DNA of 64,000 bases from positions 3,435,501 to 3,499,500 of the forward strand of contig NZ_CP020370.1 in NCBI RefSeq assembly GCF_002813775.1, written 5' to 3'. This document shows, one piece after another, positions 25,277-48,875 of the stretch (position 1 is the first letter of the stretch; each line of letters opens with the position of its first letter). Below the pieces are notes generated by a model that ran no database searches, was not told the DNA's origin, and was given only the letters and a program-made list of their open reading frames with translations. The position numbers and the translations under genes were made by a program. The stretch comes from Candidatus Thiodictyon syntrophicum (GTDB lineage Bacteria > Pseudomonadota > Gammaproteobacteria > Chromatiales > Chromatiaceae).

Positions 25277-25278
25277 TC

Positions 25279-30664: not shown

Positions 30665-30844
30665 TCCGCACGACGCTGCAGCGGTCCTTCGGGGGCTCCG
30701 GGTACCGGCGCGGCAGGCCGTGCCTTGCCTTGCCTGATCTGATGACCTGGAGCGCACTGGGTGATCATTCGCTATTTTGTCACCACGCCGCCATATCAAT
30801 CGGTCATTACCATCATCTCTGAAACGGCTGAAGGAAGAGCGAAG

Positions 30845-33220
30845 ATGCGCAACGCTGAAACTGCAAGATACCCATTAAGTGCATTGGCCGACCTGTTAGT
30901 GGTGGGTGCATTATTGGTGTCGGCCTCCTTGTATGCCTACAACAAACCCTGGGATCAGGGACACGACGGCACCAACCCGAGCAACCCCAACAATCCCAAC
31001 AATCCCCCGAATCCGCCGAACAATCCACATGGCGGCTCCGGATCCCCGGTCTATATCAAGTCCGGCAGTTTCATGCAGGTTCACATTGATCTGACTGTTC
31101 AGGCGTGCGGCAAGCCGATGAAGATCACCCGTTTCTACAACAGTGCTGACGAAAGCAGCGGCATCTTCGGTAATGGTTGGACCCTGGGCTACGGCATGCG
31201 ACTCCTGCCGACTCAGGAATCAGATGGCACCGAGTATGTGCTGGCACTCATGTCCAATGGACAACGCTACCGCTTTACGCGGAACTCCGACGGCACCTTC
31301 ACCCCCCCCCCGGGCACGATCTTCACCCTGACAATGGACCGTGGGGACTATGTTCTTAAAGATAACCTTGAATTGAGCTATCGCTTCGGCAGCGATGGCT
31401 TTCTAACCCACATGAGCGATCGGGGCGGCAGCACTTTGTCGTTCTCTTATCAGCTCTTTGGCGGCTGTTTCGACAAGATCAGTGACGAATCCAATCGTGT
31501 ATTCCAGTTCACGTTCGGAGCGAACGGTAAGGTGGCGAGTATCTCCGATCCCGTCGGCAACAGTGTCATCTACGAATATGACCAAAGCGGAAATCTGATT
31601 GTATTCACCGACTCCGAAGGTGGACGCTGGCAATATGGATACGACGCGACGAATAAGTTGACGTCGGTCAAGAATCCCAACAATGAGACCGTTACTACGG
31701 TTACCTACGAGGCCGGGGAATTGCATCGCGTGCTGACCTACTCAGATCGCGGCGAGACCTTCAGGCTGACCTATCAGTCGGCCAACCAGACTAACAAGCA
31801 AAACAGTCTGAATCGCACCGTTCAGTACCAATTTCTTGACAACGGCCTGATCACTAAGAAGACTTCCCCATTGGGGTTCGCCATTCAGCACGGCTATGAC
31901 GCGAGTTACAACTACACATCCTTTACCGATCAGAACAATCACGTCACTGCGTTCTCGTATGACGCTGCCAAGAATCTGACGGGCGTGCGGGACGCCTCTT
32001 CGGCTGCGACGACGCTGATATATGACAGCGACGGCAACGTCCTCAGCATCTCTGATCCACTAGGCCGAACAGCACAGTTTGTCTACTCTTCAACTTCCTC
32101 CGATCTGACCCAGATCGCGCGGGCCGGATCAGGCGATATCGCTATTACCTATGATGGCAAGGGGTACCTGCAGTCCATCAATTATCCGGGGGGGGAGAGC
32201 CTGGCGTTTGAGCGCGATATGATATGCAATCTCAAGCGTATCCTGTCATCCTCGGGTAAGGAGATAGCAATCGCCTATGATGGTCTCGGCAATCCGACCT
32301 CGATTACATCGCCATCCGGGACTCAGTTGATCGGATACAATAAGACCAGTCATATCACATCGGTCACAGATGGGACCGGTACGACCCACATCGGCTACGA
32401 TGCGACCGGGCGTATTACCCAGGTGGTCGAACCTGATGGCACCACGTTCCAGATGAGTCACAACGGTACACTGCAAAAGATTACCCAGACCAAGTATCCC
32501 GATAACAGCACATTTTCGTATGACTATTATTCGTTTGATCGGCTCAAGACGCTTACATTCGCACCCGGTAGCGGTCCCGGCACGAGTTGGGCGAAGCAGT
32601 TTGGGTATGATGCCGATGAGCGGTTGACCACCGTTACCCTACCCTCGGCGGCAACCATTACCTATTCCTACGATCCAGCCGGCAATGTCACGGGCATCCA
32701 GGATTCCAGTCTGGGCGTCGCTATTACTCTCGGGTATAACGCGGCAAATCGGGTTTCAAGCATCGACAGCGCCAACTACACGGACTCGTTTTTTTATAAC
32801 GAGATCGGTAACCGGATTAAGAAGCGCGATAACGCGGGAGTCGAGACAGTATATAACTATGACGCTCGGGATGGTTTGACCGGCGTGAGCACGCTGGGAG
32901 TCACCACAACCTTCCCGGCACCCGTGCGGAAACTGCCATCGACGATCATGCTCAGTGACGTCATCGGCTTGTACAACTCGCGTCAGAACCTGCGCCTCCT
33001 GTCTTATCTGGTTGCCTTTACGCCGGACGAATTGATCGCGATGTTGCGCTACGATCTTCAGTACCATCGTCTGGCGCTTAACGGCATTGAAGAGCGGCAG
33101 TTGACGGGCTTCCGCCACGCGGTGCTGCCCCAGGCTGACACCTTCGCAGTTCCACAGATTCTGACGATCTTCAATTTCGTCGATCAGTATCGACGCCTGG
33201 GTGCGGTTTGGCAACCATAG
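30845..33220 (+). CDS. RHS/YD-repeat protein without the conserved core end
   Basis: A 791-residue secreted or membrane-anchored protein. An N-terminal hydrophobic segment is followed by an Asn/Pro tract (NPNNPNNPPNPP) and a DUF6531-like start of an RHS shell (TRFYNSADESSGIFGNGWTL). About fifteen YD repeats follow (for example GYDATNKLTSVKNPNNET, YDPAGNVTGIQD, YNYDARDGLTGVS). The RHS core signature (DPxGxxxGxNxY) and a variable toxin domain are absent; the last about 110 residues are an unrelated helical region. It may act as a shell or adhesin rather than a toxin. Start 30845 has GGAAGAG upstream. Confidence 0.85.
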   Translation: MRNAETARYPLSALADLLVVGALLVSASLYAYNKPWDQGHDGTNPSNPNNPNNPPNPPNNPHGGSGSPVYIKSGSFMQVHIDLTVQACGKPMKITRFYNSADESSGIFGNGWTLGYGMRLLPTQESDGTEYVLALMSNGQRYRFTRNSDGTFTPPPGTIFTLTMDRGDYVLKDNLELSYRFGSDGFLTHMSDRGGSTLSFSYQLFGGCFDKISDESNRVFQFTFGANGKVASISDPVGNSVIYEYDQSGNLIVFTDSEGGRWQYGYDATNKLTSVKNPNNETVTTVTYEAGELHRVLTYSDRGETFRLTYQSANQTNKQNSLNRTVQYQFLDNGLITKKTSPLGFAIQHGYDASYNYTSFTDQNNHVTAFSYDAAKNLTGVRDASSAATTLIYDSDGNVLSISDPLGRTAQFVYSSTSSDLTQIARAGSGDIAITYDGKGYLQSINYPGGESLAFERDMICNLKRILSSSGKEIAIAYDGLGNPTSITSPSGTQLIGYNKTSHITSVTDGTGTTHIGYDATGRITQVVEPDGTTFQMSHNGTLQKITQTKYPDNSTFSYDYYSFDRLKTLTFAPGSGPGTSWAKQFGYDADERLTTVTLPSAATITYSYDPAGNVTGIQDSSLGVAITLGYNAANRVSSIDSANYTDSFFYNEIGNRIKKRDNAGVETVYNYDARDGLTGVSTLGVTTTFPAPVRKLPSTIMLSDVIGLYNSRQNLRLLSYLVAFTPDELIAMLRYDLQYHRLALNGIEERQLTGFRHAVLPQADTFAVPQILTIFNFVDQYRRLGAVWQP

Positions 33221-33237
33221 CGGATGAGGAGCCTACG

Positions 33238-34017
33238 ATGATCAAACGACACCACTGGGAATTGATTGCGGTACTGGTGTTGGCAGCCGTACCGACGTCG
33301 TCACCCCTGGCCTTTGAACTCAAATACCTCGATCAAACGGGGACGGTATTGGATTATTCGCTGAAGATAACGCGAGACAATGAGGCAACGTCCGTCGATG
33401 TCCAGCGTAGAGTAGACAGTAACCAAGGTGGCGTGTTGACGATCACGACGGCGTTCGCGAATGGCCAAAGCAGTCGTGGCGGAATTGTGACGCTGATCCC
33501 GGGCATGGATGGGACGAATCTGCGAACCGTCATGGATGAGCATGGCGTGGTCAGTTCAGTTACGCCCTTGGGTGACTTCGCGGCAACCTTGAATTCGTTG
33601 AATCTGGCGGTCGATCGCGACCTCTGGCATTCGCTGGGGATCTCCAGCTTTCCGGCGGGTGATCGGGCGGTCGGTGATTCCTGGACCAAGTCGGCCAGCG
33701 GCGGCAATCTGTTTACCTATCGTATCGCGGAGGAGGGACTGAGTTTGTCCGGCTACAGTTCGGTCGTACGCATTCATATCACCTCGACCATCGAACTGGA
33801 CAACCGCCAAGAGGTGTTCAAGGCGCGCAAGAGCTTTTATTCCCGTGGACGCATTGGGTTCACCGGGGACATCTATTTCGATGTCGATGTCGGGCGCATC
33901 GTTCGACAGGCGGTGTCGCTGAACACGCATGTGCTTACGGTCGTCGTCGATCTGGACGGTACCCCGCAGATATCCCACGACGAAGGTGTCACGAACGTCG
34001 AGTTAACGATTCAATAG
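33238..34017 (+). CDS. secreted protein of unknown function
   Basis: A 259-residue protein with a signal peptide (WELIAVLVLAAVPTSSPLA) and a beta-rich mature part. It resembles in layout the secreted lipoprotein-like proteins that follow surface-repeat genes (TYRIAEEGLSLSGYSSVVRI, FYSRGRIGFTGDIYFDVDVG). I do not recognise a family. GAGGAG precedes the start at 33238; it lies 17 bases after the RHS gene and 9 bases before the ABC exporter, so it is in the operon. Confidence 0.7.
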   Translation: MIKRHHWELIAVLVLAAVPTSSPLAFELKYLDQTGTVLDYSLKITRDNEATSVDVQRRVDSNQGGVLTITTAFANGQSSRGGIVTLIPGMDGTNLRTVMDEHGVVSSVTPLGDFAATLNSLNLAVDRDLWHSLGISSFPAGDRAVGDSWTKSASGGNLFTYRIAEEGLSLSGYSSVVRIHITSTIELDNRQEVFKARKSFYSRGRIGFTGDIYFDVDVGRIVRQAVSLNTHVLTVVVDLDGTPQISHDEGVTNVELTIQ

Positions 34018-34026
34018 ACGGCACCC

Positions 34027-35901
34027 ATGACGACTCCGGTGTTTACTGACAGGGCCTTGCTGCGAAAGCGGATAGGTCAACTCTTCGCGATTCACCGCTA
34101 CCTTATCCCTTTTTGGGGTAAGCAGGGACTGATGCTCCTGTGCTCCCTCGGTTTTATTTCCTTCGGCCTGATCACGCCCTTCCTCTCAAAGGTCGCTATC
34201 GACTACGGGCTGAATCGGGGCGATGCGGTGGTCTTCCACGCAGTTCTCGCCGCCGGCGCTATCTCTTTTCTGTTTTCTGCGCTGATTGGAATCATTCAGA
34301 AATACCTCGGATTCCACGTCAGTGTCTTGCTCGGGCTTGCCGTGCGCATGGACTATTATGAACGACTATGTCGCCAGCCGCTCTCTTTTTTTGATTCCCA
34401 TTCGCCCGGCGAATTATTTCATCGCTTGACCAACGACACTGCGTCCGTAGTAGGGTTGGTTACCGGCACGATTCCGAACGTGCTGCTGACGCTTTTCCGG
34501 CTGGTCCTCGTTGGTGTCATATGCGTAATGTTGAGCTGGCAGGTCACACTGTTCGTCGCGGGGGGCGCTTGCCTGCATTACGCGCTGAATCACTATTTCG
34601 GATTGCGCGGGCTGCGCATCACCACGGCGCTCGCGGAGAAGGGGCAGCGCATCAGTGGGCTGTGGCAGGACACGCTGTCGAGGATTGTGCTGTTCAAGGC
34701 ATTCTATCGGGAGCGGCAGGGGCTCAATGCCTATCGGCGAGAGGCCCTCGCGCAGTCCCGCATCCTGGCCGAGTCCTTTTGGCTGACGGCTGCAAGTGGC
34801 GGAACGCAGCAGGCCTTGAGCAGCGGGTTCGCACTGTTGCTTTCCTTATACCTGGGAACCCTTGTAATCAGTGGGCAACTCACGCTGGGTGCGTTCGTAG
34901 CACTTGCGATGTACCTGAGCCAGCTTTCCGGACTGCTACGCTCTCTCGGCGGGGTCTATCAGGGGTTGATTTCTCAGTTCGTCTATGTGGACAGGTTTTT
35001 CGAGGTCTACGGACCGGGGGAAGGGGCGCGCGCGCAGTCCAGGCCGGGGTCGCAACCGGGGTTAAGTGACTTTTCAGAGACAAGTAGTTCAGGTCCAGCG
35101 AGGCTCCGGCCAAGAACCAACTGTCGGCACGCCGAGGAGGTACCGGTAGTGCCTGAACCTTTACCAAGTGACGTACCTGCCATTGCGTTTGAAGACGTTT
35201 CGTACAGCTACCCAAACGGCCACTTGGTACTTGAGGGCCTCAATTTGTCGGTGTGGCCTGGTGAAACACTCTTAGTCCTGGGCAACAGCGGTGTGGGTAA
35301 GAGCACCTTTGCGAAGCTGCTGATGGGACTACTGGGGCCTGCAACCGGGCGAATCGTGATTTTCGGTAGAGCCCTGGACGGGCTGAGCGACCGGGAGCGG
35401 CGTCGTACCCTGGGGATTGCCTTACAGGATAGTCCCCTGCTCAACGCGAGCATGAGGGAGAACGTCACCTTCGGTCGGCGCAGCATCGCGGAGGAAGATT
35501 ATCGACAGGTCCTATCGATTTGCGGCTTGGAAGGGGTTTTCGCTGGGTCGGCATCGCGTGCGGACGCACGACTTGGAGACGCCGGTGGAACTGTATCCGT
35601 GGGTCAGCGCCAGCGAATCGCCATCGCCATGGCATTGTTGAAACAGCCGAGGATTCTCGTGTTGGACGAGGCCACCAATCAAGTGGAGACGCAACTGGAG
35701 GAGCAGATCGTCGCAAGGATTCATCGGTTTTATCCAAAGATGACGGTAATCGTTCTTTCCTGCAGGCATAGGTCTGGGTTTAGATCTGATCGTGTGCTTG
35801 AGCTTGTTGGCCTGGATCATGACCGGACCTTGGCGCCATCAACGGCCGCACCGCGATTGGCGTCGCGAATGTCGGCAGCGCTCGCGTCTGCTGCGGCGTG
35901 A
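34027..35901 (+). CDS. ABC exporter, fused membrane and ATPase domains
   Basis: A 624-residue half-transporter of the MsbA/peptide-exporter type. Six hydrophobic segments (about 30-320) hold the SFFDSHSPGELFHRLTNDT loop. The ATPase follows a Ser/Arg-rich linker of about 50 residues: Walker A GNSGVGKST, Q-loop IALQDSPLLNASMRENVTFG, a deviating signature VSVGQRQRIAIAMALL (Val-Ser-Val instead of LSG), Walker B ILVLDEATNQ and an H-loop in LSCRHRS. There is no C39 peptidase domain. It is the best candidate to export the cysteine-repeat peptide or a related product. Confidence 0.9.
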   Translation: MTTPVFTDRALLRKRIGQLFAIHRYLIPFWGKQGLMLLCSLGFISFGLITPFLSKVAIDYGLNRGDAVVFHAVLAAGAISFLFSALIGIIQKYLGFHVSVLLGLAVRMDYYERLCRQPLSFFDSHSPGELFHRLTNDTASVVGLVTGTIPNVLLTLFRLVLVGVICVMLSWQVTLFVAGGACLHYALNHYFGLRGLRITTALAEKGQRISGLWQDTLSRIVLFKAFYRERQGLNAYRREALAQSRILAESFWLTAASGGTQQALSSGFALLLSLYLGTLVISGQLTLGAFVALAMYLSQLSGLLRSLGGVYQGLISQFVYVDRFFEVYGPGEGARAQSRPGSQPGLSDFSETSSSGPARLRPRTNCRHAEEVPVVPEPLPSDVPAIAFEDVSYSYPNGHLVLEGLNLSVWPGETLLVLGNSGVGKSTFAKLLMGLLGPATGRIVIFGRALDGLSDRERRRTLGIALQDSPLLNASMRENVTFGRRSIAEEDYRQVLSICGLEGVFAGSASRADARLGDAGGTVSVGQRQRIAIAMALLKQPRILVLDEATNQVETQLEEQIVARIHRFYPKMTVIVLSCRHRSGFRSDRVLELVGLDHDRTLAPSTAAPRLASRMSAALASAAA

Positions 35902-35915
35902 CAGAGGAGAGCGAA

Positions 35916-36455
35916 ATGAACAGCGTTAGCGCCGCGAATCGCATTCACACTTGGGAATGGTGGTTTCTGCGCGTCATGCGTGACAGTCGGCTGGTCGCGC
36001 TGACCATGGTTATCTTGTTCGCCGGGCTCGGGGCCAGTCTGTGGATGCTGGCGGTCAGTACCCGGGTCGCCGAGGACTTTCCGCTCGTTGGCCGATTTGT
36101 GCTTGACGCATTTCCCGTCGAGCCAGAGGGAACTTCCAGCGATTCGCGAGACTCCTTAGTTGCAGTGCTGTCGTTCGTCCGCGATGACGCGGCTCGCGCT
36201 GCCTTGGAGCGGGTGGACCGTGCCGAGATCCGTGTGACCTCGGGCGGTCTCACCCAATCCCTTCCGCTGTCGCTCCGGGGGCCGGTGGAAATGACCGGCG
36301 ACGGGACCGGGTTTCTCGGCTATCGCGTGGCGGTAGATGGGATCGGGACCGCGCCTGCGGTAGTTGCCCATGGCCAGGTCGGTCTCATGAGTTTCGTGCT
36401 GCGTGTTCGCCGGAAGACACTTTGGCAGGTCTTGCGGGGCGGGGAAGCCCGCTGA
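35916..36455 (+). CDS. single-pass membrane protein, possible exporter adaptor
   Basis: A 179-residue protein with one membrane segment (LVALTMVILFAGLGASLWML, about 29-48) and a periplasmic part. The ending GQVGLMSFVLRVRRKTLWQVL resembles the C terminus of HlyD-type membrane-fusion proteins that pair with peptide ABC exporters, but the long coiled coil is missing. It follows the exporter by 14 bases. I treat the adaptor role as an inference. Confidence 0.5.
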   Translation: MNSVSAANRIHTWEWWFLRVMRDSRLVALTMVILFAGLGASLWMLAVSTRVAEDFPLVGRFVLDAFPVEPEGTSSDSRDSLVAVLSFVRDDAARAALERVDRAEIRVTSGGLTQSLPLSLRGPVEMTGDGTGFLGYRVAVDGIGTAPAVVAHGQVGLMSFVLRVRRKTLWQVLRGGEAR

Positions 36456-36456
36456 T

Positions 36457-37656
36457 ATGAACACGCCGCGACAGTGGTTAACAGGCACGCTGCCGGTCCG
36501 CGGGCTCCTTCTTCGGATCACAGCGTGTTGGTTGGGGGTAGGCATTGCAGCGGCGGGCGAGGGCGCGGCCCCCTATATGACCCGCTGCGAAGGACTTACC
36601 CGCACGTCCTTTGACTTCATCACGGCCTATGCTGATGGGGCACTTCGCGGTGATTTCCGTTACGGGCACTTGCGGTTCCGCTTTCCACCGGGGCTCGTCG
36701 CAACAGCCGACCTCCGCCAGTTGGCGCAGGAGTGTGAGTCGGCATATCAGGACATCAATCGTCGCTTTGACATGGCCTATCAGAAGGTCATCGAGATTTT
36801 CCTTTACCCGCTTGAGCATGAGGGGCGGGTCTGGTACGCACTACCCTGCCTGGGGCGCGCACACCGCGACCAGATCCATGTGGCGTATCGTAACCGGTTA
36901 GAGCACGGGCATATCCAGCACGAGATGGTGCATCTCATGGTCGAACCGTTACATCAGTTTGCGCCGCCCGACAGCATTCCCGCACTGCTCATTGAAGGCC
37001 TGGCTGAATATGTGGTCGATGCCCCCTGGGGAATCGATCTGGATGCCTGGGTCACTGGCAGCATCGCGCTCGGGCGGTTCGTCGGGTTGGACTCGCTGCT
37101 GCGGGACTCCTCCTTCCGATCGGCCAATCCGATCGTGGCTTACACGGAGGCGGGGTCATTCGTACGCTACCTCGTCACGCGCTACGGTCTCGAAGCCTTA
37201 AAGGGTCTCATGGCCAAGCCCTCTTTCTCGGCGACCTATGGGAAGACACTCGGAACGCTTGAAGCGGATTGGCTTAACGTCATCAGCGGCGCCGTTGCAA
37301 AGGGGGACCAGCAGGGTCTGATTGAGTACCGCATCGCACTGGGCGATCGAGTGCTGTCACCTGAAGCACTTGCCCGAACGCCTTGGATTGGTCTGGAATT
37401 GGCGGACGCGACAGATCATCTCGTCGTTGAGCGCGTCGCGCCGGGAAGCCCCGCGGCCGACGTCGACGTGCGGTCTGGCGACGCGGTTCTTGCCGTGAAC
37501 GAAGAGCCGCTGTCCGCTGGCGACGCGTGGAAGATCGGCCGGGCTCTCGAAGACCGCGCGCCCGGAGAACGACTGTCACTTTTGGTCGGCCGGGAAGATG
37601 ACATATGGCGTCTGCAACTGGTCGTGAGGACCAATCCGACTTGGGTAATACACTAA
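36457..37656 (+). CDS. HExxH metallopeptidase with PDZ domain
   Basis: A 399-residue secreted protein. After a signal-like hydrophobic start comes a peptidase-MA-like gluzincin domain with the zinc motif QHEMVHLM (His155, Glu156, His159) and the third ligand in IEGLAEYVVD (about Glu180 or Glu184). A C-terminal PDZ domain follows (WIGLELADATDHLVVERVAPGSPAADVDVRSGDAVLAVNE split over residues 308-350). It should act in the periplasm on unfolded or C-terminal peptide ends. It overlaps the radical SAM gene by one base and could trim the exported peptide. Confidence 0.82.
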   Translation: MNTPRQWLTGTLPVRGLLLRITACWLGVGIAAAGEGAAPYMTRCEGLTRTSFDFITAYADGALRGDFRYGHLRFRFPPGLVATADLRQLAQECESAYQDINRRFDMAYQKVIEIFLYPLEHEGRVWYALPCLGRAHRDQIHVAYRNRLEHGHIQHEMVHLMVEPLHQFAPPDSIPALLIEGLAEYVVDAPWGIDLDAWVTGSIALGRFVGLDSLLRDSSFRSANPIVAYTEAGSFVRYLVTRYGLEALKGLMAKPSFSATYGKTLGTLEADWLNVISGAVAKGDQQGLIEYRIALGDRVLSPEALARTPWIGLELADATDHLVVERVAPGSPAADVDVRSGDAVLAVNEEPLSAGDAWKIGRALEDRAPGERLSLLVGREDDIWRLQLVVRTNPTWVIH

Positions 37657-39080
37657 TGCAAAGGCAAACAGTCCATCAGTTTCTGACCGCCCAGACCCTT
37701 TCGCTGTTTGGGCCTGGGTCTGATTCCGGAGCACCCGATCAGCCTGGTTGTCCTCTGCCCCATGGGGAACTCCGCCAGACCCTGTTTGAACGCATCGAGC
37801 GTCAGTACGGCATTTGCCTGGCCGATGCGGTCGGTGATCGAGACCTCAGCCTCGGCGAACTCAATGGTCTTGTGATCTCCGAGATCAAGCGGCGGTCGCG
37901 TCTTACGGTAGACTCCAAGACCGTGTTTGAGAATTTCATTTTTGCAGGCCGCTGCAGGAAACTGTCAAGTCCATACGAGATCAATCTCGATCTGACCTTC
38001 AGATGCAATTATAGATGCGTCTTCTGTTATGCCTCGGCAGTGGATAGCGACGACCAACACAAGGAGTTGTCCACTGACGAGGTATTTGATATTCTCGATT
38101 CCTTCGCGAGTATGAACGGAGCCTTTGTGCTGTTCGGCGGCGGTGAGCCTTTTCTGCGCGACGACTTCCTGGAGATCCTCCGGTATACCAAGAGCAAGGG
38201 ACTGTGGACCTATATCATCACCAACGGCTCACTAATCACTGCGCAGGTCGCTGAGCAATATGCCCGGCTGACTGACTCGCGCCATGACAAGATTCAAGTG
38301 AGTCTCGATGGGTCCTGTGCCGCGATACATGACAAGCAGAGGGGTGTCAAAGGGGCCTTTGATATGACCCTAAAGGGGATTCGCAACCTTACCGGAAACG
38401 GCATTCGTCCATTGATCAACACGGTTGCGACCCAACTCAATTTCAGCGACATTCCCGAAATCCTGGATCTCGCAGCCCGCGAGAACGCGCTCACCTATCG
38501 CTGCCTCATGCTCCACAAGATCGGACGCGGGGCCAAGGATAAGCTTTATGCCCGCCTTGAACTCAATCAGGAGCAGAACGACTGGCTATATGGCTTTCTC
38601 GATGCCAAGCGTGATGAGCTGATGGGTCTGATCGGCATCGCCAGCGATAACGCCTGTGTGTTTCCAATGAGCACAGCGGCCATTCGCGTGCAGATTCCTC
38701 CGATGCCCGGTGCCGTCCCGAGCAGCTATTCCTGCGCTGCCGGAACCACCAAGCTGGCTATTTCGCCGGAGGGCGGAGTCGTCCCGTGTTCCTATTTCTA
38801 CGATTTCCCAGGTTTCTATCTCGCGTCTCTCAGAGAGCGCAGTCTTAAGGAAATTTGGGAAGACGATACCTTGTGGCGGGATTTCCGGGAACCACTCGAA
38901 CCAGAGGGAAAGTGCCGCGATTGCGATTACCTCTACACCTGCAAGACCGGATGCCGGATCATGTCCTATGTTGGATGCGGCTCCTTTGGTGGTCCGGACA
39001 TCGGCTGTACCTATGATCCCAGGGAAACCATCTCGGTTGGGGACCCAAGCACCGGAGGACCAGACCGTGAACACGTTTGA
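37656..39080 (+). CDS. radical SAM/SPASM peptide-modifying enzyme
   Basis: A 474-residue radical SAM protein. The 4Fe-4S/SAM motif is FRCNYRCVFC (Cys117, Cys121, Cys124), preceded by about 110 residues of substrate-binding lead-in. GGGEPFLRDD is the SAM-binding GGEP motif. The C terminus is a SPASM/twitch region with cysteines in YSCAAGTTKLAISPEGGVVP, CSYFYDFPG and GKCRDCDYLYTCKTGCR. Such enzymes install thioether or C-C links in ribosomal peptides. It ends inside the cysteine-repeat gene (14-base overlap), so enzyme and substrate are probably translationally coupled. Confidence 0.9.
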   Translation: MQRQTVHQFLTAQTLSLFGPGSDSGAPDQPGCPLPHGELRQTLFERIERQYGICLADAVGDRDLSLGELNGLVISEIKRRSRLTVDSKTVFENFIFAGRCRKLSSPYEINLDLTFRCNYRCVFCYASAVDSDDQHKELSTDEVFDILDSFASMNGAFVLFGGGEPFLRDDFLEILRYTKSKGLWTYIITNGSLITAQVAEQYARLTDSRHDKIQVSLDGSCAAIHDKQRGVKGAFDMTLKGIRNLTGNGIRPLINTVATQLNFSDIPEILDLAARENALTYRCLMLHKIGRGAKDKLYARLELNQEQNDWLYGFLDAKRDELMGLIGIASDNACVFPMSTAAIRVQIPPMPGAVPSSYSCAAGTTKLAISPEGGVVPCSYFYDFPGFYLASLRERSLKEIWEDDTLWRDFREPLEPEGKCRDCDYLYTCKTGCRIMSYVGCGSFGGPDIGCTYDPRETISVGDPSTGGPDREHV

Positions 39081-39651
39081 ACGCTGCGATCTCGAAAAGA
39101 TCGATTTTGCGGGCTGCCCCTGTGCCCCTTGCGGCGCAGCCGCCTGCGCGGCTGACGCCTGTGGGGGCGCCGCCTGTGGGGGGGATGCCTGCGGCGGCGC
39201 TGCCTGCGGCGGGGATGCCTGCGCGGGCGCCGCCTGCGGACTCGCCGGATGCGGAGGCGCTGCCTGTGGCGGCGCTGCCTGCGGCGGAGCCGGCTGCGCC
39301 GTGGACGCCTGCGGCGAGGCGATTTGTGGCGGTGACGCCTGCGGCGGTGCCGCGTGCGGTCTCGACGCGTGCGGCGCCGCCGCCTGCGGCGGCGCGGCCT
39401 GTGCGGCGAACGCCACGGTTGATGGCAAGCCCTGTGGCGCTGACGCCTGTCTGGTAAACTGCCCGGTAGTGGACGCCTGCTTGGCCGACGCCTGCTTAGT
39501 CGACCTCCTCCCGATCGTCCCGGGTATCTCGACGCCGGGCTCCGGCGGCATTCCGTACTCGTTCAGTTCGACGGCGGAGAGCGGCGCGATCATTTACGGT
39601 GACGCGCTTGCAGGGACCTTTGCGCTTCTTCGCGATACGATCGAGGATTGA
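39067..39651 (+). CDS. cysteine-pentad repeat protein, probable radical SAM-modified precursor
   Basis: A 194-residue protein from a GTG at 39067 with GGAGG nine bases upstream. After a 15-residue leader (NTFERCDLEKIDFAG) cysteine falls at every fifth residue without exception from 22 to 112 (19 Cys), with Cys17 in register. The pentads read mainly DACGG and AACGG in alternation, giving a ten-residue unit with Asp at Cys+3. A second, shorter array (Cys123, 128, 132, 138, 143) follows. The last 45 residues are cysteine-free (LVDLLPIVPGISTPGSGG and on). In all 27 Cys. It is flanked by a radical SAM/SPASM gene and a PqqD-like gene. The overlapping +2 and antisense frames are Pro/Ala artefacts of the repeat. 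Confidence 0.8.
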   Translation: MNTFERCDLEKIDFAGCPCAPCGAAACAADACGGAACGGDACGGAACGGDACAGAACGLAGCGGAACGGAACGGAGCAVDACGEAICGGDACGGAACGLDACGAAACGGAACAANATVDGKPCGADACLVNCPVVDACLADACLVDLLPIVPGISTPGSGGIPYSFSSTAESGAIIYGDALAGTFALLRDTIED

Positions 39652-39654
39652 TGC

Positions 39655-39981
39655 GTGGCCATTCACACCAAACAGGATGTCATAGAACGTATTGTTTATG
39701 TGAAAAAAGAAATGCCGGAGGTGCTGTTTCGTGAAGAGATCCTCAATGGCGAGTCCGTCGCGATCATTTACGATTCCATCACGAAGACGATGTTCCATGT
39801 CAAGGGAAATGGCGGCGCGATCTGGAAGCTCCTAGACGGCCGGCGCACCATACGCATGGTCAGCGAGGATCTTGCGCGCGCCAGCCCCGGCCTCGACGAG
39901 AGCGATGCCCTTGCTGACGTCACGCGGTTCGTCGTCCAGCTTGGCGAGCAACGGCTGATTCGCTTTGCCTACGAGGTTTGA
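39655..39981 (+). CDS. PqqD-like RiPP recognition element protein
   Basis: A 108-residue protein of the PqqD/RRE fold: EVLFREEILNGESVAIIYDS, TKTMFHVKGNGGAIWKLLDG, RTIRMVSEDLA, DVTRFVVQLGEQRLI. This matches the usual leader-binding winged helix, including the N-x-x-G-x-x-I-W-xx-L-D-G segment. The start is a GTG at 39655 with GAGG upstream, three bases after the peptide gene. It should present the leader to the radical SAM enzyme. Confidence 0.85.
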   Translation: MAIHTKQDVIERIVYVKKEMPEVLFREEILNGESVAIIYDSITKTMFHVKGNGGAIWKLLDGRRTIRMVSEDLARASPGLDESDALADVTRFVVQLGEQRLIRFAYEV

Positions 39982-40032
39982 CAAAGGCAAGGTCGCCCAT
40001 TTCTTCTACAACCTTATCCGGTGGAGAAAGAC

Positions 40033-40809
40033 ATGCCCCGCGCTACTTCTACATCCGCACTGGCAACTCTGCTGGCGCTTGTCGTGCTTACGCTTGCGGC
40101 AGTGTCGGCGTTCGGCGATGGAAAGCGTTTCTCTGAAATAGCTGAGATCAAGCTCACAGGACAAAACCTCCCGGCAGGCTGGGCGCTGGTGGAAGAGGTC
40201 ATTGCAGACGAAGCGGCCCTCGCCAAGTTCAAGACGATCTATGGCGTCAAGGCCGAATCCATTGTCAACCAGATTTTCAACGCTGCGGGCCAGCGGGTGC
40301 AGCTCAACTATTGCCTGTTTTCGGATGCGCCGCTCGCCGAGTTGGCGGCGGCGAAGATCTCGGTATTCACGCGCTCGCAGAATCCCATCGTTCAATCCGG
40401 CAACAGTGTCGTAGAGATTATTACGGGTGACCCTTGGAAGAAACAATCCGTTCTGACAGCTCTCGGCCTTCCCGGATTAGAGGGGGTGCTGCTTACCGAA
40501 CAAAGCACGCCTAAGGATTGGGCGCTGAGCGCCGTCGTACTCGTCGATCGCGCGCAGTTGCCGATCTTTCGCACCAAACTTGATGCCCCTGTCGAGATAT
40601 TGTTCAACCAGGTGTTCAAAGTGAATGGGACCATAGTTAAAATCAATTATATCGGAATGCCGGACGAAGCGGCGGCGGAGCGTCTGCGTTCGGTTATGGC
40701 AGGCACCGCCACCGAAGGCCGCGTCGTGCTCCGGCGGGGCCAGGTAGTCATCGAGATTCTCTCAACGGATCCGGATTTGGTGAGCAGAGCTGCCGCCGCA
40801 TTGGGCTGA
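40033..40809 (+). CDS. secreted protein with an internal duplication
   Basis: A 258-residue protein with a signal peptide (ALATLLALVVLTLAAVSAFG). The mature part is two similar halves: LPAGWALVEEVIADEAALAKF with VNQIFNAAGQRVQLNYCLF, and TPKDWALSAVVLVDRAQLPIF with FNQVFKVNGTIVKINYIGM. Each ends with a segment like VVEIITGDPWKK or VVIEILSTDPDLV. Family unknown. GGTGGAG precedes the ATG at 40033. It probably binds something in the periplasm, given the duplicated beta-alpha layout. Confidence 0.7.
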   Translation: MPRATSTSALATLLALVVLTLAAVSAFGDGKRFSEIAEIKLTGQNLPAGWALVEEVIADEAALAKFKTIYGVKAESIVNQIFNAAGQRVQLNYCLFSDAPLAELAAAKISVFTRSQNPIVQSGNSVVEIITGDPWKKQSVLTALGLPGLEGVLLTEQSTPKDWALSAVVLVDRAQLPIFRTKLDAPVEILFNQVFKVNGTIVKINYIGMPDEAAAERLRSVMAGTATEGRVVLRRGQVVIEILSTDPDLVSRAAAALG

Positions 40810-40907
40810 AGCACAGATTTCCGGATCAGGGCACCCGCGGACGGGTCACGCTGGAACGAGTCTGCGGGTTATATAGGCGAACACATTGCCGCGTCTTCGC
40901 GCTGGGG

Positions 40908-42359
40908 GTGAAGTATGGGTGCATTGCATTGACGGACTATCGCCTGGCGTTTCGGTTACTCAACGAAGACCTGTTTGGGCTTGCCGAGCAGAAGATGGAT
41001 CTGATCACTGAACTGCGGATGAACGACTCCGTGATCGATGGAAATCGCAAGATCATCTGCTTCGTTGGGCCACGTGGGGCGGGTAAGAGATCACTTGCTG
41101 CCACGCTTGCCCGCGCCTTGGGCCAGAAATTCCTCACCATAAGAATCGGCCAGGACGATGATTGCGGAGCGCCGAGATATGGCAGGAGCAAGGCGGGTGA
41201 ACTTGCGGGAAATCTGCTTCACCTGATGGACCGGAACCGCGGGCAACGGCTTTTGATTCTGCTTGATGGTATTGAATACATCAACCCGATCTTTCAGAAT
41301 AGGACAGTTACCAGCTTTCGTGAAGTTCTGACGATCTCTCACGAACATTCCTTGCGCCTTGGGCATATCGACCAACCGCTGAATTTCGCTGACGTGGTCT
41401 TCGTGGCGACGGCACGGGAGGCGCGGGGGATTACCCGAGAGATGCTGGACGAGCTAAAGTTGATTCAGTTCACGGGATATTGTGATGACGAAAAGGTCGA
41501 GATCGTCAAGCGCTGGATGATCCAGCCGAATCACTCAAGCAACGCGTGTTGCGGCGCGGCGCAGATCGACGATGACGGTATCTTTGATCTGATCCGGTGC
41601 TACACGAACGAACTCGGCGTTTTTGAGCTCAGGGCGGTCTTCGATCGCCTTCAGCGGCAGTTGGTCTTTGAGTCTACGGTCGCAGGAGCGGCCCCGCAAC
41701 AGCGTTTGGGGCGACAGGACCTGAGTCGCTATCTGGGGCCTCCACTGTATGACGCGGCCAGCGTGCGCAACGGTCTTCAGGTCGGCGCTGTTGCTATGCT
41801 TGGCCGTTGCGACGGACGGGGAGTGATTTCAGAGATCGAAGTGCTCACTATCCCGGATCCCCGGGCGAATCTGGTCCTCACCGGCAATCTCGACGCACTG
41901 TTCAGGGAGGTCGTCATGGTGGCCCTTTCATGCCTGAGAAAGCGGAGCGCTGAGTATGGGATCTCCCCGGAGTTCCTGTCCCGGCATACGGTTCATGTTA
42001 ATGCAATTCCCGGCGGCGTCCTCAAGTCCGGCGTATCGTCCGGGCTTGCGGTTCTGCTCGCCCTGTTCTCGGAGATCAAGGGTCTGCCGCTGCGCGCCGA
42101 TCTCAGTGCGATCGGCGAGGTCACCCTCCGGGGCGGCATACGCAGGGTCATTGGCGTACCTGAGAAGATCCTTGGCGCTCACCGCCTCGGTATTAGGACG
42201 CTGTGCTACCCAAACGAGAACCAGGGCGATATCGATCGCTTGCCAAGGGAGTTGGTTGGGGGATTGGAACTGATCGGTGTGGATTCGGTCGATCAGGCGC
42301 TGATGGCCGTGTTCGGGGATAAGTTTCATTCTCCGACAGCGCCTCGGGCCCGATCATGA
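40908..42359 (+). CDS. AAA+ ATPase with Lon-type (S16) protease domain
   Basis: A 483-residue LonB-like protein. The AAA domain has Walker A GPRGAGKRS (about 54-62), Walker B LLILLDGIE and the FVATAREARGI sensor. The protease domain has a serine in LKSGVSSGLAV (Ser377, aligned with the DGPSAG box) and a lysine in VPEKILGAHRLGI (Lys420), followed by the family ending LCYPNENQGDI. There is no N-terminal Lon substrate domain. GTG 40908 is the likely start; an ATG at 40995 would cut into the domain. It could clear or cleave the precursor leader in the cytoplasm. Confidence 0.85.
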   Translation: MKYGCIALTDYRLAFRLLNEDLFGLAEQKMDLITELRMNDSVIDGNRKIICFVGPRGAGKRSLAATLARALGQKFLTIRIGQDDDCGAPRYGRSKAGELAGNLLHLMDRNRGQRLLILLDGIEYINPIFQNRTVTSFREVLTISHEHSLRLGHIDQPLNFADVVFVATAREARGITREMLDELKLIQFTGYCDDEKVEIVKRWMIQPNHSSNACCGAAQIDDDGIFDLIRCYTNELGVFELRAVFDRLQRQLVFESTVAGAAPQQRLGRQDLSRYLGPPLYDAASVRNGLQVGAVAMLGRCDGRGVISEIEVLTIPDPRANLVLTGNLDALFREVVMVALSCLRKRSAEYGISPEFLSRHTVHVNAIPGGVLKSGVSSGLAVLLALFSEIKGLPLRADLSAIGEVTLRGGIRRVIGVPEKILGAHRLGIRTLCYPNENQGDIDRLPRELVGGLELIGVDSVDQALMAVFGDKFHSPTAPRARS

Positions 42360-42916
42360 GTACCCTATCTCTCATCTGGCTTCTTATTGGACTCTCGGTT
42401 GCTGTCTTCGCCGGGGTCTTATGGGCGATTCGGCGTCAGCGGTTTCTGGTGCCGAATGACGCAGTTAATGCTGTGCAGACGCTCGCCTTCAGCACGCGCG
42501 ATGTCGGTGCATGTGGCGCGACTTGTGCGCCACTCGCTATCTGGGAAGAAGTCGCGCTCCTGGATGATGACGATGGACAGCATCTTACGCTCACCTTCGG
42601 TCGGACTCCGGCGGAGGTCGTAGCGATCCGATGGTCGGATTCCGCTCGCGCTGCTGCTCAATGGAGCAACTATTACCGGCGAACTTACTATGATAAAGTT
42701 CGGCAACTGGCCCTCAGCAACACCGTGTTCAAACCCTATTTCATCGTTGGCCGATTTGGTTTGAAACCGGCGTGGGATTTAGCGGCTTGGTCGCAAGGCC
42801 GGTGGTTTTTCGCGGTCATCGTCCCAACGACAATCCCTGCTGCACATCGGGTCAGGCTGGAGATCGAGCGTCGTCTGCTGACCCACCTCGCTCATCTTGG
42901 TTGCGTGCGAGATTGA
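42356..42916 (+). CDS. small membrane-anchored protein of unknown function
   Basis: A 186-residue protein with one N-terminal membrane segment (LSLIWLLIGLSVAVFAGVLW) and a soluble domain of about 150 residues. Features include ACGATCAPLAIWEEV, a short Asp run, WSNYYRRTYYDKV and a C-terminal amphipathic helix. I do not recognise a family. It overlaps the Lon-like gene by four bases (ATGA), so it is in the operon. Confidence 0.65.
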   Translation: MSTLSLIWLLIGLSVAVFAGVLWAIRRQRFLVPNDAVNAVQTLAFSTRDVGACGATCAPLAIWEEVALLDDDDGQHLTLTFGRTPAEVVAIRWSDSARAAAQWSNYYRRTYYDKVRQLALSNTVFKPYFIVGRFGLKPAWDLAAWSQGRWFFAVIVPTTIPAAHRVRLEIERRLLTHLAHLGCVRD

Positions 42917-42933
42917 CGCCGGAGGAGACTCGG

Positions 42934-44658
42934 ATGCAAAGCGCGCTTGTCTTTCCGCCGTTCCTGGTCAGTTACCAACCTTATTCCAGCCTGCCCGCGC
43001 TTGCTGGTTTCCTCCGGGGGCAGGGCTTTACTGTCGCCCTGCTCGATGAGAATATCGAGTACCAAGCGCAGAGGCTGAGGCGGATTCATTTCGACGCCAT
43101 TGAGGCCGGCGTTCAAACCCTGCGAGCGGATTGTGCGAGGCTCGACTCCGACGATGGCAGGAGCCTGGGCCGCTATCTTGACAGTTGTTTCAGGCCAGAG
43201 TACTTTGCCGCCGTCGCTGCCGGACTGGAAGATGCAATTGCGGGTTTACGTAATTCACATATCCTTGCCGATGTGTGCAAGGCCGATCAGGCACGGAGCG
43301 TCTTGAATCGCGCGCAAAATCTCGTCCACCAATTCAACAAAGTATTTGAACTCTCGGTATTGGGCTATGGAAAGAGGCAAGGCGGTCTCACCTGGCAAGA
43401 CATCGCACTGCTAAGCGCACATCGCGCTAATCCCTACACATCTTTTCTGCGCAGCGAGACGATTCCCCGCCTGTCCTTGGCTCGACCTGCTCTGATCGGG
43501 ATTTCGTTGGTGTTTGAAGACCAACTGGTTGCCGCCTTTACGCTTGTCCGGGAGATCAGGAGAGAGCCTGCACTTGCCGACGTTCACATTGTGATTGGCG
43601 GGCCGGTGGTCACCATCTTACAGGACGAGATCCGCAACTCGCCTGAACTCTTCGATGCGGTCGACTCATTCGTTGTATACGAGGGGGAGTGGGCCTTGGT
43701 GAATTTGCTTAGAGCGGTCGAGTCGGGCGCTCCGCTGGACGCCGTGCCGAATTTGATCTATCGCGTCGCTGACGTTGTCAAGAGTAACGACATTGCGGTC
43801 ATTCCGGACCTCGATGTGCTGCCAACGCCGGATTACCACGGACTTCCACTTGAAAAGTACTTTTCGCCGCGCATGGTTCCGGTATTGCAGACAACACGCG
43901 GCTGCTATTGGGGAAAATGCACGTTCTGTAACAGCAGCTTCCTCAACGCCGGACCCCGCTATCGCAGCAGGTCGGCCGCGAAAATTTATGAGGATTTCGT
44001 AGGATTGCATGAGCGCTTCGGGCTGTCTGAATTTGCACTCTGGGAAGAGGCGGCCGTACCCAGAGTTCTGCGGGATCTTGCCGTATTGATCGCGGGCGGC
44101 GCTTATCGCTTCAAGTGGTTCGCGGAAGTGCGCCTGGACAAAGTGTTTTCTTACGATCTGCTTTCAACCCTCTATCGTGGGGGCTGTCGGGCCTTTGTCT
44201 TCGGCTTCGAGTCCGGCAGCGTCCGGGTTCAGGGTCTGATGAACAAGGGTTATGATCTGGCTGTCAGTAGCCAGGTGATCCGCGACTGCAGAAAGGTCGG
44301 GATCCGCGTCTATCTCACAAACATGGTTGGCTTCCCGTCGGAGGCTTCGCGGGATGTTTTCGATACGCTCGCGTTTCTCAAGGCCAACGCGCGCTATATT
44401 TATCACGCCGGCGTTTCGCACTTTGGTTTACGCAGGTACACCGATACCTGGCGGTTCCCCGAACGCTTCGGCATTTGCGTGGATTCGTCGGCGCCGACGC
44501 TCTCTGCGGGCGGAGATCTCTCTTATCAGGTTGACCCTGAACGCTGTATGTCGCTCAACCATTCGTTGGCCTTTTATGATCTCGTTCGCAGAGAAATCAA
44601 GCGGATGGGGCTCGAGGGGGGGGAGCCGGAGGCGCATTATCTGATCCGTTGTCATTGA
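42934..44658 (+). CDS. B12-binding-type radical SAM protein
   Basis: A 574-residue protein. The N-terminal about 300 residues resemble a cobalamin-binding domain (ALVFPPFLVSYQPYSSLPAL, GFTVALLDENIEYQ, IGISLVFEDQLVAAFTL, IVIGGPVVTIL) without a clear DxHxxG. A radical SAM domain follows with TTRGCYWGKCTFC (Cys324, Cys328, Cys331), FGFESGSVRVQGLMNKG and VYLTNMVGFPSEA. Relatives methylate or rearrange unactivated carbons, including in RiPP pathways. GGAGGAG precedes the start. It is the second radical SAM enzyme of this operon, of a different class from the SPASM one. Confidence 0.85.
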   Translation: MQSALVFPPFLVSYQPYSSLPALAGFLRGQGFTVALLDENIEYQAQRLRRIHFDAIEAGVQTLRADCARLDSDDGRSLGRYLDSCFRPEYFAAVAAGLEDAIAGLRNSHILADVCKADQARSVLNRAQNLVHQFNKVFELSVLGYGKRQGGLTWQDIALLSAHRANPYTSFLRSETIPRLSLARPALIGISLVFEDQLVAAFTLVREIRREPALADVHIVIGGPVVTILQDEIRNSPELFDAVDSFVVYEGEWALVNLLRAVESGAPLDAVPNLIYRVADVVKSNDIAVIPDLDVLPTPDYHGLPLEKYFSPRMVPVLQTTRGCYWGKCTFCNSSFLNAGPRYRSRSAAKIYEDFVGLHERFGLSEFALWEEAAVPRVLRDLAVLIAGGAYRFKWFAEVRLDKVFSYDLLSTLYRGGCRAFVFGFESGSVRVQGLMNKGYDLAVSSQVIRDCRKVGIRVYLTNMVGFPSEASRDVFDTLAFLKANARYIYHAGVSHFGLRRYTDTWRFPERFGICVDSSAPTLSAGGDLSYQVDPERCMSLNHSLAFYDLVRREIKRMGLEGGEPEAHYLIRCH

Positions 44659-44737: not shown

Positions 44738-45193
44738 ATGAAAGCAAATGATATCAGGGCTTGCGTCGGGGCGCGAAAATCCCAGGTGGTGGCGGCTATC
44801 ATGGGGTTATTTTTCAGTACGGCAGTATTGGCACTTACCCCCTTCGCGTATATTCAACTAACCGCCGAGATGATGCAGCATCGCGCCCAGGAGTACGAGC
44901 GCTTTGCCGTACTTGCGGTTAGGTTTCGGGACTCTCCCGCGGGCTGGCGGACAATGGAGACTGACCTCCACAGGCAGTCGGACGCGGAGATTGGGAAGCT
45001 CTATAGCCGTTACGGAGTCGACGAGAGGGAGTTCCTCTCTTATTACTCGGCGAATCCGCAGATTGTCGGAGCCTATCTGGACGCGAATCCGGACCAGCAA
45101 GAGCGTCTCCATGGCCTCCAGGAGCGCATGGAAAAGGCTTTGGCGGATTTCGAAGCGCAGAAAGCCAAGATCGGACCCGAGGCATTGCGTTGA
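44738..45193 (+). CDS. membrane-anchored helical protein
   Basis: A 151-residue protein with one membrane segment (VVAAIMGLFFSTAVLALTPFA) followed by charged helices (MMQHRAQEYERFAVLAVRFR; ERMEKALADFEAQKAKIG). Family not recognised. It overlaps the next gene by one base and lies 79 bases after the B12-type radical SAM gene. Confidence 0.65.
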   Translation: MKANDIRACVGARKSQVVAAIMGLFFSTAVLALTPFAYIQLTAEMMQHRAQEYERFAVLAVRFRDSPAGWRTMETDLHRQSDAEIGKLYSRYGVDEREFLSYYSANPQIVGAYLDANPDQQERLHGLQERMEKALADFEAQKAKIGPEALR

Positions 45194-46089
45194 TGGGATT
45201 CTCCGGCGCGATCGGCAACGCGATGGTCGTCCGTAAGCCATTTGCTGCAGGTCCCGGGTCCAGACCTTGGGAGGCCCACGGGTTGGCTGCGCGCCGTTGG
45301 CGGGTGCTTTGCCGGTTCTTGATCGCTTCGTTGCTCGTCGGTTCAGTTGACTGTGCCACGGCTCAGGGTCTCAGCGTCGAGCCGAACCCGGTGGATATGG
45401 GTCCGGTAGCCGCAGGATCCCGGCTTCAGGCGCGCCTTTCGGTGCGCAATGAGAGTGATCGGGTGCTCACTATCCTCGATTTGGAAAAAGGCTGCCACGT
45501 CATGGTCGATCTGCCGGACAGTGCAAAGCTCGCACCCGGAGCCGCGATGGTGCTGACCGTGACATGGGACGCGGATATGTCACTCGGGGTGAAGCAAACG
45601 CGCCTGTTCCTTCGGACTGACAGTCTCAGCGACCCGGAAGTCCCGGTGAATATAGTACACGATGTGCGAGACAGCGCTGCGCTGTTCCCGGCATCAGCGG
45701 TCCTGCGCGGCGGCGCCTGTCAGCGGGGAGAGCCCGTCTTTGTAGAACTCAGGCTGATAGGAGAAGCAGAGACGGACCTGAAAGAGATCAACGTCAGTGG
45801 GGTAGGGCTGCGGGCCTGGAGTGAGCCGTTGGACTCGCCAGGTAGACGGGGTTACCGCATCGGTGTGGCGCTTGAGAAGCTACGGTCTTTTGATGTGTCG
45901 ATGGAGGTGGTCACTCTGGAGATTGTTACGGCGGCGCACCGGCACTCTCTTGACCTGCCGGTTCTGGTGCTCTGCGAATCCCGTGAGCCCAGGCGCCCCG
46001 CTATTCTGCCAGAGCGGGAGAGAGTGCCCGCTGCGAATCGAGCACTCACGGATGGCGCCGTGTCTGCCGGCCGGGGGATCACGCCATGA
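45193..46089 (+). CDS. secreted DUF1573/ASH-like domain protein
   Basis: A 298-residue protein. After a 50-residue lead-in with a hydrophobic segment (FLIASLLVGSVDCATA) comes a DUF1573-like immunoglobulin domain: LSVEPNPVDMGPVAAGSR, LSVRNESDRVLTILDLEKGCH and LAPGAAMVLTVTWDAD. A second beta-rich region follows (AVLRGGACQRGEPVFVELRL). DUF1573 proteins are periplasmic or surface proteins of unclear role. The gene overlaps both neighbours (one base and four bases). Confidence 0.8.
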   Translation: MGFSGAIGNAMVVRKPFAAGPGSRPWEAHGLAARRWRVLCRFLIASLLVGSVDCATAQGLSVEPNPVDMGPVAAGSRLQARLSVRNESDRVLTILDLEKGCHVMVDLPDSAKLAPGAAMVLTVTWDADMSLGVKQTRLFLRTDSLSDPEVPVNIVHDVRDSAALFPASAVLRGGACQRGEPVFVELRLIGEAETDLKEINVSGVGLRAWSEPLDSPGRRGYRIGVALEKLRSFDVSMEVVTLEIVTAAHRHSLDLPVLVLCESREPRRPAILPERERVPAANRALTDGAVSAGRGITP

Positions 46090-47063: not shown

Positions 47064-47083
47064 TTAAGAGAGGAGACCCGATT

Positions 47084-48386: not shown

Positions 48387-48875
48387 TCACCTCCTGGATA
48401 TCCCAGTGATTTCCAGGAGTGTCGTGTCGCCGGCACGGCGCAGCTGTATACCGCGAGCATCGATACCAGTAACACGCCAGCCGGCGACCCAATCGCTCAA
48501 CTCCACAGTCCAATCGCGCCCAGTCTCGGCATCATGCAGGCGCGCCTGAGCGATACCTGGAGCAACGACCACATAACGCAGCGTGATCGCCGTGGGGAAG
48601 TTCTTCAACCGAGCGTCCATGGCGCGTGTTGCAGACGCGGGCGAAGCCTCGGGGCGACGCGAGGGTGCGAACAGCGGCTTTGCTGCAACCTGTTCAAACA
48701 ACTCGGCGGGAGGCATTTTCGGGAGGGACACAATGTTCGTCGCACGCGGGGGGGGCAGAAGGGTCGCCGGCATCACACAAGGCTCCGTCATCATGCGACA
48801 GGGCCATAGCCAGCATTCCGCTGCAACCAGAAGCGCCAACCATCCACAGGTGATGACGAGGGCGCGGCGGGTCAT
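48387..48875 (-). CDS. GspC/GspN-like general secretion protein
   Basis: A 162-residue protein with one membrane segment (ALVITCGWLALLVAAECWLW). It has a linker with the LFEQVAAKPLFAPSRRP phrase typical of GspC/GspN-type subunits and a small beta domain (ITLRYVVVAPGIAQARLHD, GWRVTGIDARGIQLRRAGD) like the GspC homology region or PilP. The start at 48875 overlaps the end of the GspM-like gene by four bases. It should bridge the inner-membrane platform to the secretin. Confidence 0.65.
   Translation of the reverse strand: MTRRALVITCGWLALLVAAECWLWPCRMMTEPCVMPATLLPPPRATNIVSLPKMPPAELFEQVAAKPLFAPSRRPEASPASATRAMDARLKNFPTAITLRYVVVAPGIAQARLHDAETGRDWTVELSDWVAGWRVTGIDARGIQLRRAGDTTLLEITGISRR

Follow-up and report, generated by a model that had tools for sequence, protein, structure and literature searches.

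A PqqD-like protein encoded near enzymes and transporters strongly indicates a biosynthetic cluster for a ribosomally synthesized and post-translationally modified peptide (RiPP) that depends on a RiPP recognition element (RRE) (PMC7470986). Here we describe such an arrangement in Candidatus Thiodictyon syntrophicum. The window, that is the whole stretch of 64,000 nucleotides that was analysed (contig NZ_CP020370.1, positions 3,435,501 to 3,499,500), encodes at 39067-39651 (+) a 194-residue protein with a ladder of cysteines at every fifth residue, between a radical S-adenosylmethionine (SAM)/SPASM enzyme and a PqqD-type protein. As the first-pass annotation of this DNA had proposed, the enzyme, the RRE and a leader-bearing precursor share one operon, the arrangement expected of an RRE-dependent radical SAM RiPP, and the order and leader are kept in a Desulfobacterales metagenome-assembled genome (MAG). 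On balance we hold it probable that the gene encodes a precursor peptide for a CefA-type RiPP with radical SAM modifications, which would be matured by the PqqD-type protein and the SPASM enzyme of a 21-kb cassette and then exported and trimmed.

Several described systems invite comparison. PapA/PapB (freyrasin) and the ranthipeptides resemble the locus in having several cysteines and aspartates in a regular array and a radical SAM maturase; PapA carries CX3D motifs (PMC9413430), whereas the window peptide has CX2D, and that at a minority of its cysteines. In the TvgA/TvgB system the radical SAM enzyme TvgB likewise modifies a precursor of simple tandem repeats (TVGG) and the operon holds peptidase and transporter genes, but the repeat is without cysteine, the product is cyclopropylglycine and the further enzymes include an iron/ketoglutarate oxidase (PMC9062424). 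The pathways to pyrroloquinoline quinone (PQQ) and mycofactocin share with the window a PqqD-type RRE and a PqqE/MftC-like SPASM enzyme; the window enzyme reaches 164.7 bits against the MftC model TIGR03962, under its cut-off of 265, and its presumed substrate is long and repetitive. The ACGX system also has a SPASM enzyme, whose model (TIGR04340) the window protein matches at 83.6 bits, far under the cut-off of 400. Judging by its name, we take the ACGX target to hold Ala-Cys-Gly repeats, with a four-residue unit against five in the window peptide. Finally, the NCBIfam family NF038108, 'Cys-every-fifth RiPP peptide CefA', describes a precursor with the same cysteine spacing; the window peptide is about three times as long as the profile (65 positions), and the 25 best models (of 98) for the window SPASM enzyme include none named as a Cef maturase.

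The cysteine-ladder peptide and its family

The peptide gene is an intact frame of 194 codons with a GTG start and GGAGGA 7 bases upstream, the GTG falling inside the final 14 bases of the preceding radical SAM gene (37605-39080, +). Its product consists of a leader (residues 1-16), a CPCAPCGAAAC block (17-27) and a pentad ladder that continues up to residue 112. There are 27 cysteines, 19 of them at positions 22, 27 and so on to 112; Cys17 lengthens the exact five-residue run to 20 (residues 17-112). Beyond the ladder lie five more cysteines (123, 128, 132, 138 and 143), three of the five with Asp at +3, and the C-terminal 51 residues form a cysteine-free tail. Our recount agrees in these points with the first-pass annotation, which had described the 27 cysteines, the 19 at exact spacing, the tail without cysteine and the GTG with a good ribosome site within the end of the radical SAM gene. 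The alternation of DACGG and AACGG units that it had also reported holds in part: the pentads are mostly C-[G/A]-x-[A/D]-A, and among 18 of them Gly (15) or Ala (3) stands at +1, Ala (12) or Asp (6) at +3, and Ala (15), Gly (2) or Ile (1) at +4, so that units with Asp exist but those with Ala at +3 prevail.

Such regularity is not reached by chance arrangements of the same residues. When the protein was shuffled 20,000 times and scored for periods 2-7, no cysteine run was longer than 7, a length reached in 10 shuffles, whereas the actual run counts 20, and a six-frame scan of 111 sequences (window and loci) gave no other run longer than 9 except in two loci holding the same gene. Across the 18 pentads the minority letters number 3 at first, 19 at second and 31 at third codon positions (of 90 each), which fits selection on the protein in the sense frame. 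We judge 39067-39651 to be a genuine gene because an orthologous start stands at the same place in contig L033 of the MAG 'Desulfobacterales bacterium DeMMO6_21'. There the start lies 32 bases past the radical SAM gene and has in common with the window peptide EKIDF-GCPCAPCGAAAC; an AAGGAG precedes the start codon that opens MKEFKLSEIEKIDFLGCPCAPCGAAACG, and the contig ends 117 bases after the radical SAM gene. In a tblastn search the window peptide aligns, beginning with its first residue, to L033 4372-4452 at 67% identity over 27 residues (E 1e-8). An Rfam scan of 22000-50000 gave no match, and scans of 38900-40950 gave one promoter-like site (0.5 expected) and no terminator-like site (2.4 expected).

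The peptide scores 49.3 bits against NF038108 (E 3.4e-13, cut-off 30), the best stretch being profile positions 11-64, which falls inside the ladder and does not cover the leader. By score it is thus a member; the model tracks the cysteine pattern, and homology to other CefA peptides is unproven. Because NF038108 already names peptides with cysteine at every fifth residue, the new RiPP class claimed by the first-pass annotation is unsupported. What is new here is the 21-kb cassette of low guanine-plus-cytosine (GC) content round a named peptide type, and we found no description of this gene set; a literature search over titles and abstract starts of open-licence PMC papers likewise found none naming a cysteine-every-fifth RiPP. 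The peptide matched no PDB sequence at E<=0.1, and neither tblastn (with the low-complexity filter on) nor a DNA-level search found it in plasmids.

Across 390 genomes of the phylum of genome G093, NF038108 gave 17 matches at E<=0.01, one of them above the cut-off (L049, 30.8 bits). We rejected that match as a false positive, a shadow frame on the strand opposite a lipoprotein gene with EQALK repeats; the coordinates are L049:1318-1797 (-) and L073:6208-6855.

Short peptides of CHAPA/CHAPS repeats, with cysteine at every fifth residue in runs of 7-9, occur in four genomes of the same phylum (L070:7511-7726 (-), L058:1459-1626, L060 and L062:1489-1674 (-)). The L070 peptide is encoded between a B12 radical SAM gene upstream of it (ApyD-like, 244.6 of 750 bits) and a gene for a Trm112/OvoA-C-like methyltransferase; L071 has one after such a radical SAM gene, and L072 one before such a methyltransferase. 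NF038108 gives these peptides 18.9-21.3 bits, below its cut-off.

Maturation enzymes and relatives of the cassette

The SPASM enzyme (37605-39080, +; start possibly an internal Met at 37656) exceeds the cut-off of PF13186 and is 56-58% identical to proteins of two MAGs, the Desulfobacterales genome above and 'Desulfatibacillaceae bacterium Yes70-12' (contigs L034 and L075; a separate alignment against L075 gave 55% over 462 residues). Its CX3CX2C motif (C134, C138, C141) is invariant in the three orthologues, and so are C377, C395, C437, C440, C446, C450 and C468 of the SPASM region, seven cysteines that we take to match the full SPASM domain pattern. Foldseek, run on a three-sequence structural model too poor to rely on (pLDDT, the predicted local distance difference test score, 38.6), ranked SuiB best, then PqqE, BlsE and SkfB. 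The N-terminal 100 or so residues (37656-37937) form a helical domain with no evident RRE. Against PDB at E<=10, the L033 version of this domain matched acyl carrier proteins in four of seven cases (E 0.11, 0.15, 0.18 and 0.96), the others being sirtuin-7 twice and one cytochrome; a three-sequence profile matched them in three of seven (E 0.03, 0.28 and 0.33), the remainder being TnsB three times and sds3. The likeness is weak and suggestive only. In our reading of the alignments all three domains have Gly where the serine of a carrier protein would stand, so the domain is unlikely to act as a carrier and might instead serve for docking.

The PqqD-type RRE (39655-39981, +; 108 residues) scores 42.1 bits against PF05402 (gathering threshold 23.4). 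A second radical SAM enzyme, with a B12-binding domain, lies at 42772-44658 (+; start probably 42934) and exceeds the cut-offs of PF02310 and PF04055; its nearest NCBIfam model is TIGR03975 (126.1 bits, cut-off 281.85). The cysteines of its CX4CX2C motif are invariant in three orthologues, and it is 43% identical to proteins of both MAGs at E 1e-152 or better (a separate alignment gave 42% over 575 residues in L093, another contig of the genome that includes L075). None of the cassette genes scanned reached the cut-off of a mycofactocin or PQQ model of NCBIfam.

Gene order in the two MAGs largely follows that of the window. L033 has exporter, small membrane protein, peptidase, radical SAM gene and peptide start in the same succession, and in L075 homologues keep the window order from the PKD protein to the SPASM enzyme, the L034/L075 contig ending 15 bases after the radical SAM stop. 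L093 holds, in order, the Lon homologue, the 186-residue protein, the B12 enzyme, a 143-residue protein, the PD40, FlgD-Ig and DUF1573 proteins and a solute-binding protein, so that the DUF1573 gene is shifted relative to the window; L085, from the Desulfobacterales MAG, holds part of the Lon homologue, the 186-residue protein, the B12 enzyme and the 143-residue protein.

The cassette is rare in the genomes sampled. The SPASM enzyme was found at E<=1e-60 in one of 369 genomes of its class including its own, namely itself; among 389 genomes of the order of G093 it was found in two (G093 and G094); the peptidase was again found in G093 and G094, two of 395 genomes of that phylum. Among 93 related genomes including its own, 79 match the SPASM enzyme at E<=0.001, the best other than itself with 32% identity (E 1.4e-35). 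Genome contigs gave 11 loci, two of them above 33%, viral contigs eight at 20-29%, and plasmids 761 records, all under 60%, with 27-30.5% among the 15 matches listed. The B12 enzyme was matched at E<=1e-70 in three of 287 genomes of the phylum (G094, G184 and G330); the 20-kb stretches of G184 and G330 hold no other cassette gene at E<=1e-5 except a SPASM enzyme of 25% identity (L108), and no cysteine ladder of at least five. A candidate second peptide site in G094 (L094, E 0.03) was set aside, having no cassette gene at a convincing E value and no ladder.

Base composition sets the cassette apart. GC content is 0.577-0.592 over 26822-48217, 0.638 at 22474-26388, and 0.683 before and 0.670 after in the farther flanks, a difference that fits acquisition of the cassette from elsewhere. 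The purple sulfur bacterium 'Thiodictyon syntrophicum' Cad16T is reported to form aggregates with the genus Desulfocapsa (PMC5944118), and the occurrence of the cassette in a phototroph and in Desulfobacterota MAGs suggests a possible transfer within such communities.

Proposed maturation and competing explanations

In the pathway that we favour, the PqqD-type RRE would bind the leader (about residues 1-16) and present the peptide to the SPASM enzyme, which would move along the pentads and join many cysteine sulfurs to nearby carbons, forming thioethers with a loss of 2 Da each. As Asp is missing at +3 in most units, the acceptor would in most pentads likely be Ala or Gly. The B12 enzyme possibly methylates the peptide as well. 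The ABC transporter (34027-35901) would then export the product and the gluzincin-PDZ peptidase trim it, and the Lon homologue would probably serve as a chaperone or unfoldase.

A number of observations weigh against this pathway. The SPASM enzyme stays under the cut-offs of all 25 top-ranking NCBIfam models (98 in total); its highest score is to the heme b synthase AhbD (186.7 of 500), with mycofactocin MftC next, and the L033 protein likewise scores best to AhbD (197.5). A family search with NF038108 over the peptide's own genome missed the peptide (0 of 1). Only three genomes bearing the cassette were found, and in both relatives the ladder is implied and not seen, because both assemblies are interrupted at the ladder or immediately ahead of it; the PqqD gene was found in neither MAG genome (0 of 2), and its place would fall where the contigs end. 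Modification itself is not visible from sequence.

The first-pass annotation had counted nine cysteines with Asp at +3, and we find the same nine of 27: 27, 37, 47, 77, 87, 97, 123, 138 and 143. They stand in a ten-residue phase at 27-47 and 77-97, which would suit a ranthipeptide like freyrasin in which only these cysteines are linked to Asp and the rest are free thiols, and PapB processes Cys-Xn-Asp motifs across n = 0-6 (PMC9413430). Against this stands the ladder itself, in which 13 of the 19 cysteines from 22 to 112 have no Asp at +3 and keep the exact register nevertheless. The CX3D pairing of PapA, with Asp at +4 (Asp alone counted), occurs at one of 27 cysteines, and no PapB-type model is among the 25 best of 98 NCBIfam matches (it was not verified that NCBIfam has such a model). 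Cys-to-Asp thioethers, which that annotation had named as a natural candidate, therefore fit poorly as the general chemistry (6 of 19 ladder cysteines, 9 of 27 overall), and we consider this explanation rather unlikely. A register kept exactly without Asp suggests that cysteine spacing itself is selected, which suits Cys-Ala/Gly links or a metal-binding ladder.

The second of these options draws on a neighbouring ABC importer module (22474-26388, -), possibly part of the system, with a solute-binding protein (25279-26388, -), a permease (23681-25276, -), an ATPase (22947-23684, -) and a ChrB_C protein (22474-22986, -). The ladder would then be a metal- or Fe-S-binding peptide, a metallophore or store, whose complex the importer takes up, and the radical SAM enzymes would modify part of it or another substrate. 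With 27 thiols, an exporter and the adjoining module the parts are at hand, and in L093 the gene after the cassette encodes a binding protein 60% identical over 188 residues to that of the module. The weakness lies in its separate occurrence. Copies on plasmid pTs485 (L100; 79, 76, 77 and 66% identity) and in G025 (L099; 70, 52, 56 and 47%) lie in stretches of 13-20 kb with no radical SAM homologue at E<=1e-5 and no cysteine ladder; both are accompanied by PD40 and FlgD-Ig homologues, in L099 also by RHS, so that the importer together with the FlgD-Ig/PD40 proteins resembles an independent unit that was added to the cassette in two lineages. At 70% or more the solute-binding protein was found only in its own genome and G025 among 55 genomes including its own, of which 21 match at E<=1e-20. 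Moreover, the nearest NCBIfam models of the importer are 2-aminoethylphosphonate transporters, below cut-off. A metal-binding role is accordingly an explanation to which we would give little weight.

Far less probable is an unmodified right-handed beta-helix of the pentapeptide-repeat kind, which the first-pass annotation had offered as an alternative on the strength of the exact five-residue period. Pentapeptide-repeat proteins usually have a Leu/Phe core, and the Gly/Ala/Cys units are without one. No Pfam family, and so no pentapeptide-repeat family, matched at E<=0.1, the gene is encoded between a maturase and an RRE, and structure prediction with AlphaFold2 formed no beta-helix, in a single-sequence model (mean pLDDT 42) too poor to exclude one. 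That the frame is no gene at all, a chance or shadow product of GC-rich repeats, is scarcely credible: a 335-residue antisense frame does overlap it (38586-39593, -), and the sole match of NF038108 above its cut-off in 390 other genomes is itself a shadow frame, yet the peptide start with a ribosome site of its own is kept in L033 and codon-level variation fits the sense frame.

If the CefA-type precursor is indeed matured by the cassette, a wider function can be sketched, which we offer as a speculation with a small chance of being right. A mobile 21-kb cassette shared by a purple sulfur bacterium and Desulfobacterota could make and export a polymer built on the cysteine ladder, cross-linked by radical SAM chemistry through as many as 27 sulfur links and perhaps C-methylated too. 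Outside the cell it would be displayed or would act together with the RHS, PKD and FlgD-Ig proteins, possibly as a material for handling metal or sulfur that the ABC importer brings back in. Such a product would be a RiPP serving as a structural or metal-binding polymer and not as an antibiotic or cofactor, and a 20-step ladder in which each step is linked, served by two radical SAM enzymes, would make it unusually heavily modified. The acceptor chemistry of the ladder is not readable from the CX3D rule. What was a name in a family library now corresponds to a defined gene set (leader, RRE, maturase, exporter and peptidase) with a second lineage for comparison.

The wider cassette

The cassette is larger than the operon seen by the first-pass annotation, for it also holds the B12 enzyme, a Lon homologue and RHS/PKD proteins, in genes that overlap or are tightly spaced (-145 to +98 bases). 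It opens with a PKD/FlgD-Ig multidomain protein (26822-30664, +), matched in L075 by pieces of 36% and 49% identity, and an RHS/YD-repeat protein (30761-33220, +; 47% over 781 residues in L075). A probably exported protein of 269 residues follows (33208-34017, +; 40% over 256 residues), whose L034 homologue is weakly DUF6263-like. The ABC exporter (34027-35901, +) has membrane and ATPase domains by Pfam, which lists no peptidase domain for it, and is 40% identical over 585 residues to its counterpart in L034/L075. At 35898-36455 (+) lies a small membrane protein of 185 residues, a position that L033 and L034 share with proteins of 169-175 residues in which similarity was not detected.

The gluzincin-PDZ peptidase (36403-37656, +), probably exported, carries HEMVH and EGLAEY motifs; PF13485 scores 32.3 bits, just below its cut-off of 32.4, and PF13180 (PDZ) 31.6, above 27. 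H173, E174, H177 and E198 are kept in L033, and identity to the L075 protein is 32% and 38% in two pieces.

Downstream of the RRE, a 262-residue protein (40021-40809, +) has no family above cut-off and was not found on the relatives' contigs searched, which end short of its place. The Lon homologue (40908-42359, +; 41% over 472 residues in L093) lacks the N domain and aligns from residue 312 of the 784-residue Lon. In positions that we take to be those of the Ser-Lys catalytic dyad, it retains Ser, where the solved Lon chain has Ala, and GLKEK of Lon reads GVPEK in the window and GVHEK in L093, the Lys being replaced by Pro or His. Loss of the catalytic Lys makes peptide cleavage doubtful, and the protein is probably a pseudoprotease conserved across phyla.

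Next come the 186-residue protein (42356-42916, +; 26% in both MAGs, E 7e-14 and 3e-13) and, after the B12 enzyme, a 151-residue protein (44738-45193, +), which has in the same place in L093 and L085 the 143-residue protein, without detected similarity. The DUF1573 protein (45190-46089, +; 26%, E 4e-8), the PD40/TolB-like beta-propeller protein (46086-47063, +; 32%, E 8e-39) and the FlgD-Ig protein (46973-48217, +; 39%, E 4e-89), all matched in L093, complete the cassette. Directly after it, at 48387-49955 (-), lie a PilN-like protein and neighbouring small proteins of the type IV pilus/type II secretion assembly kind.

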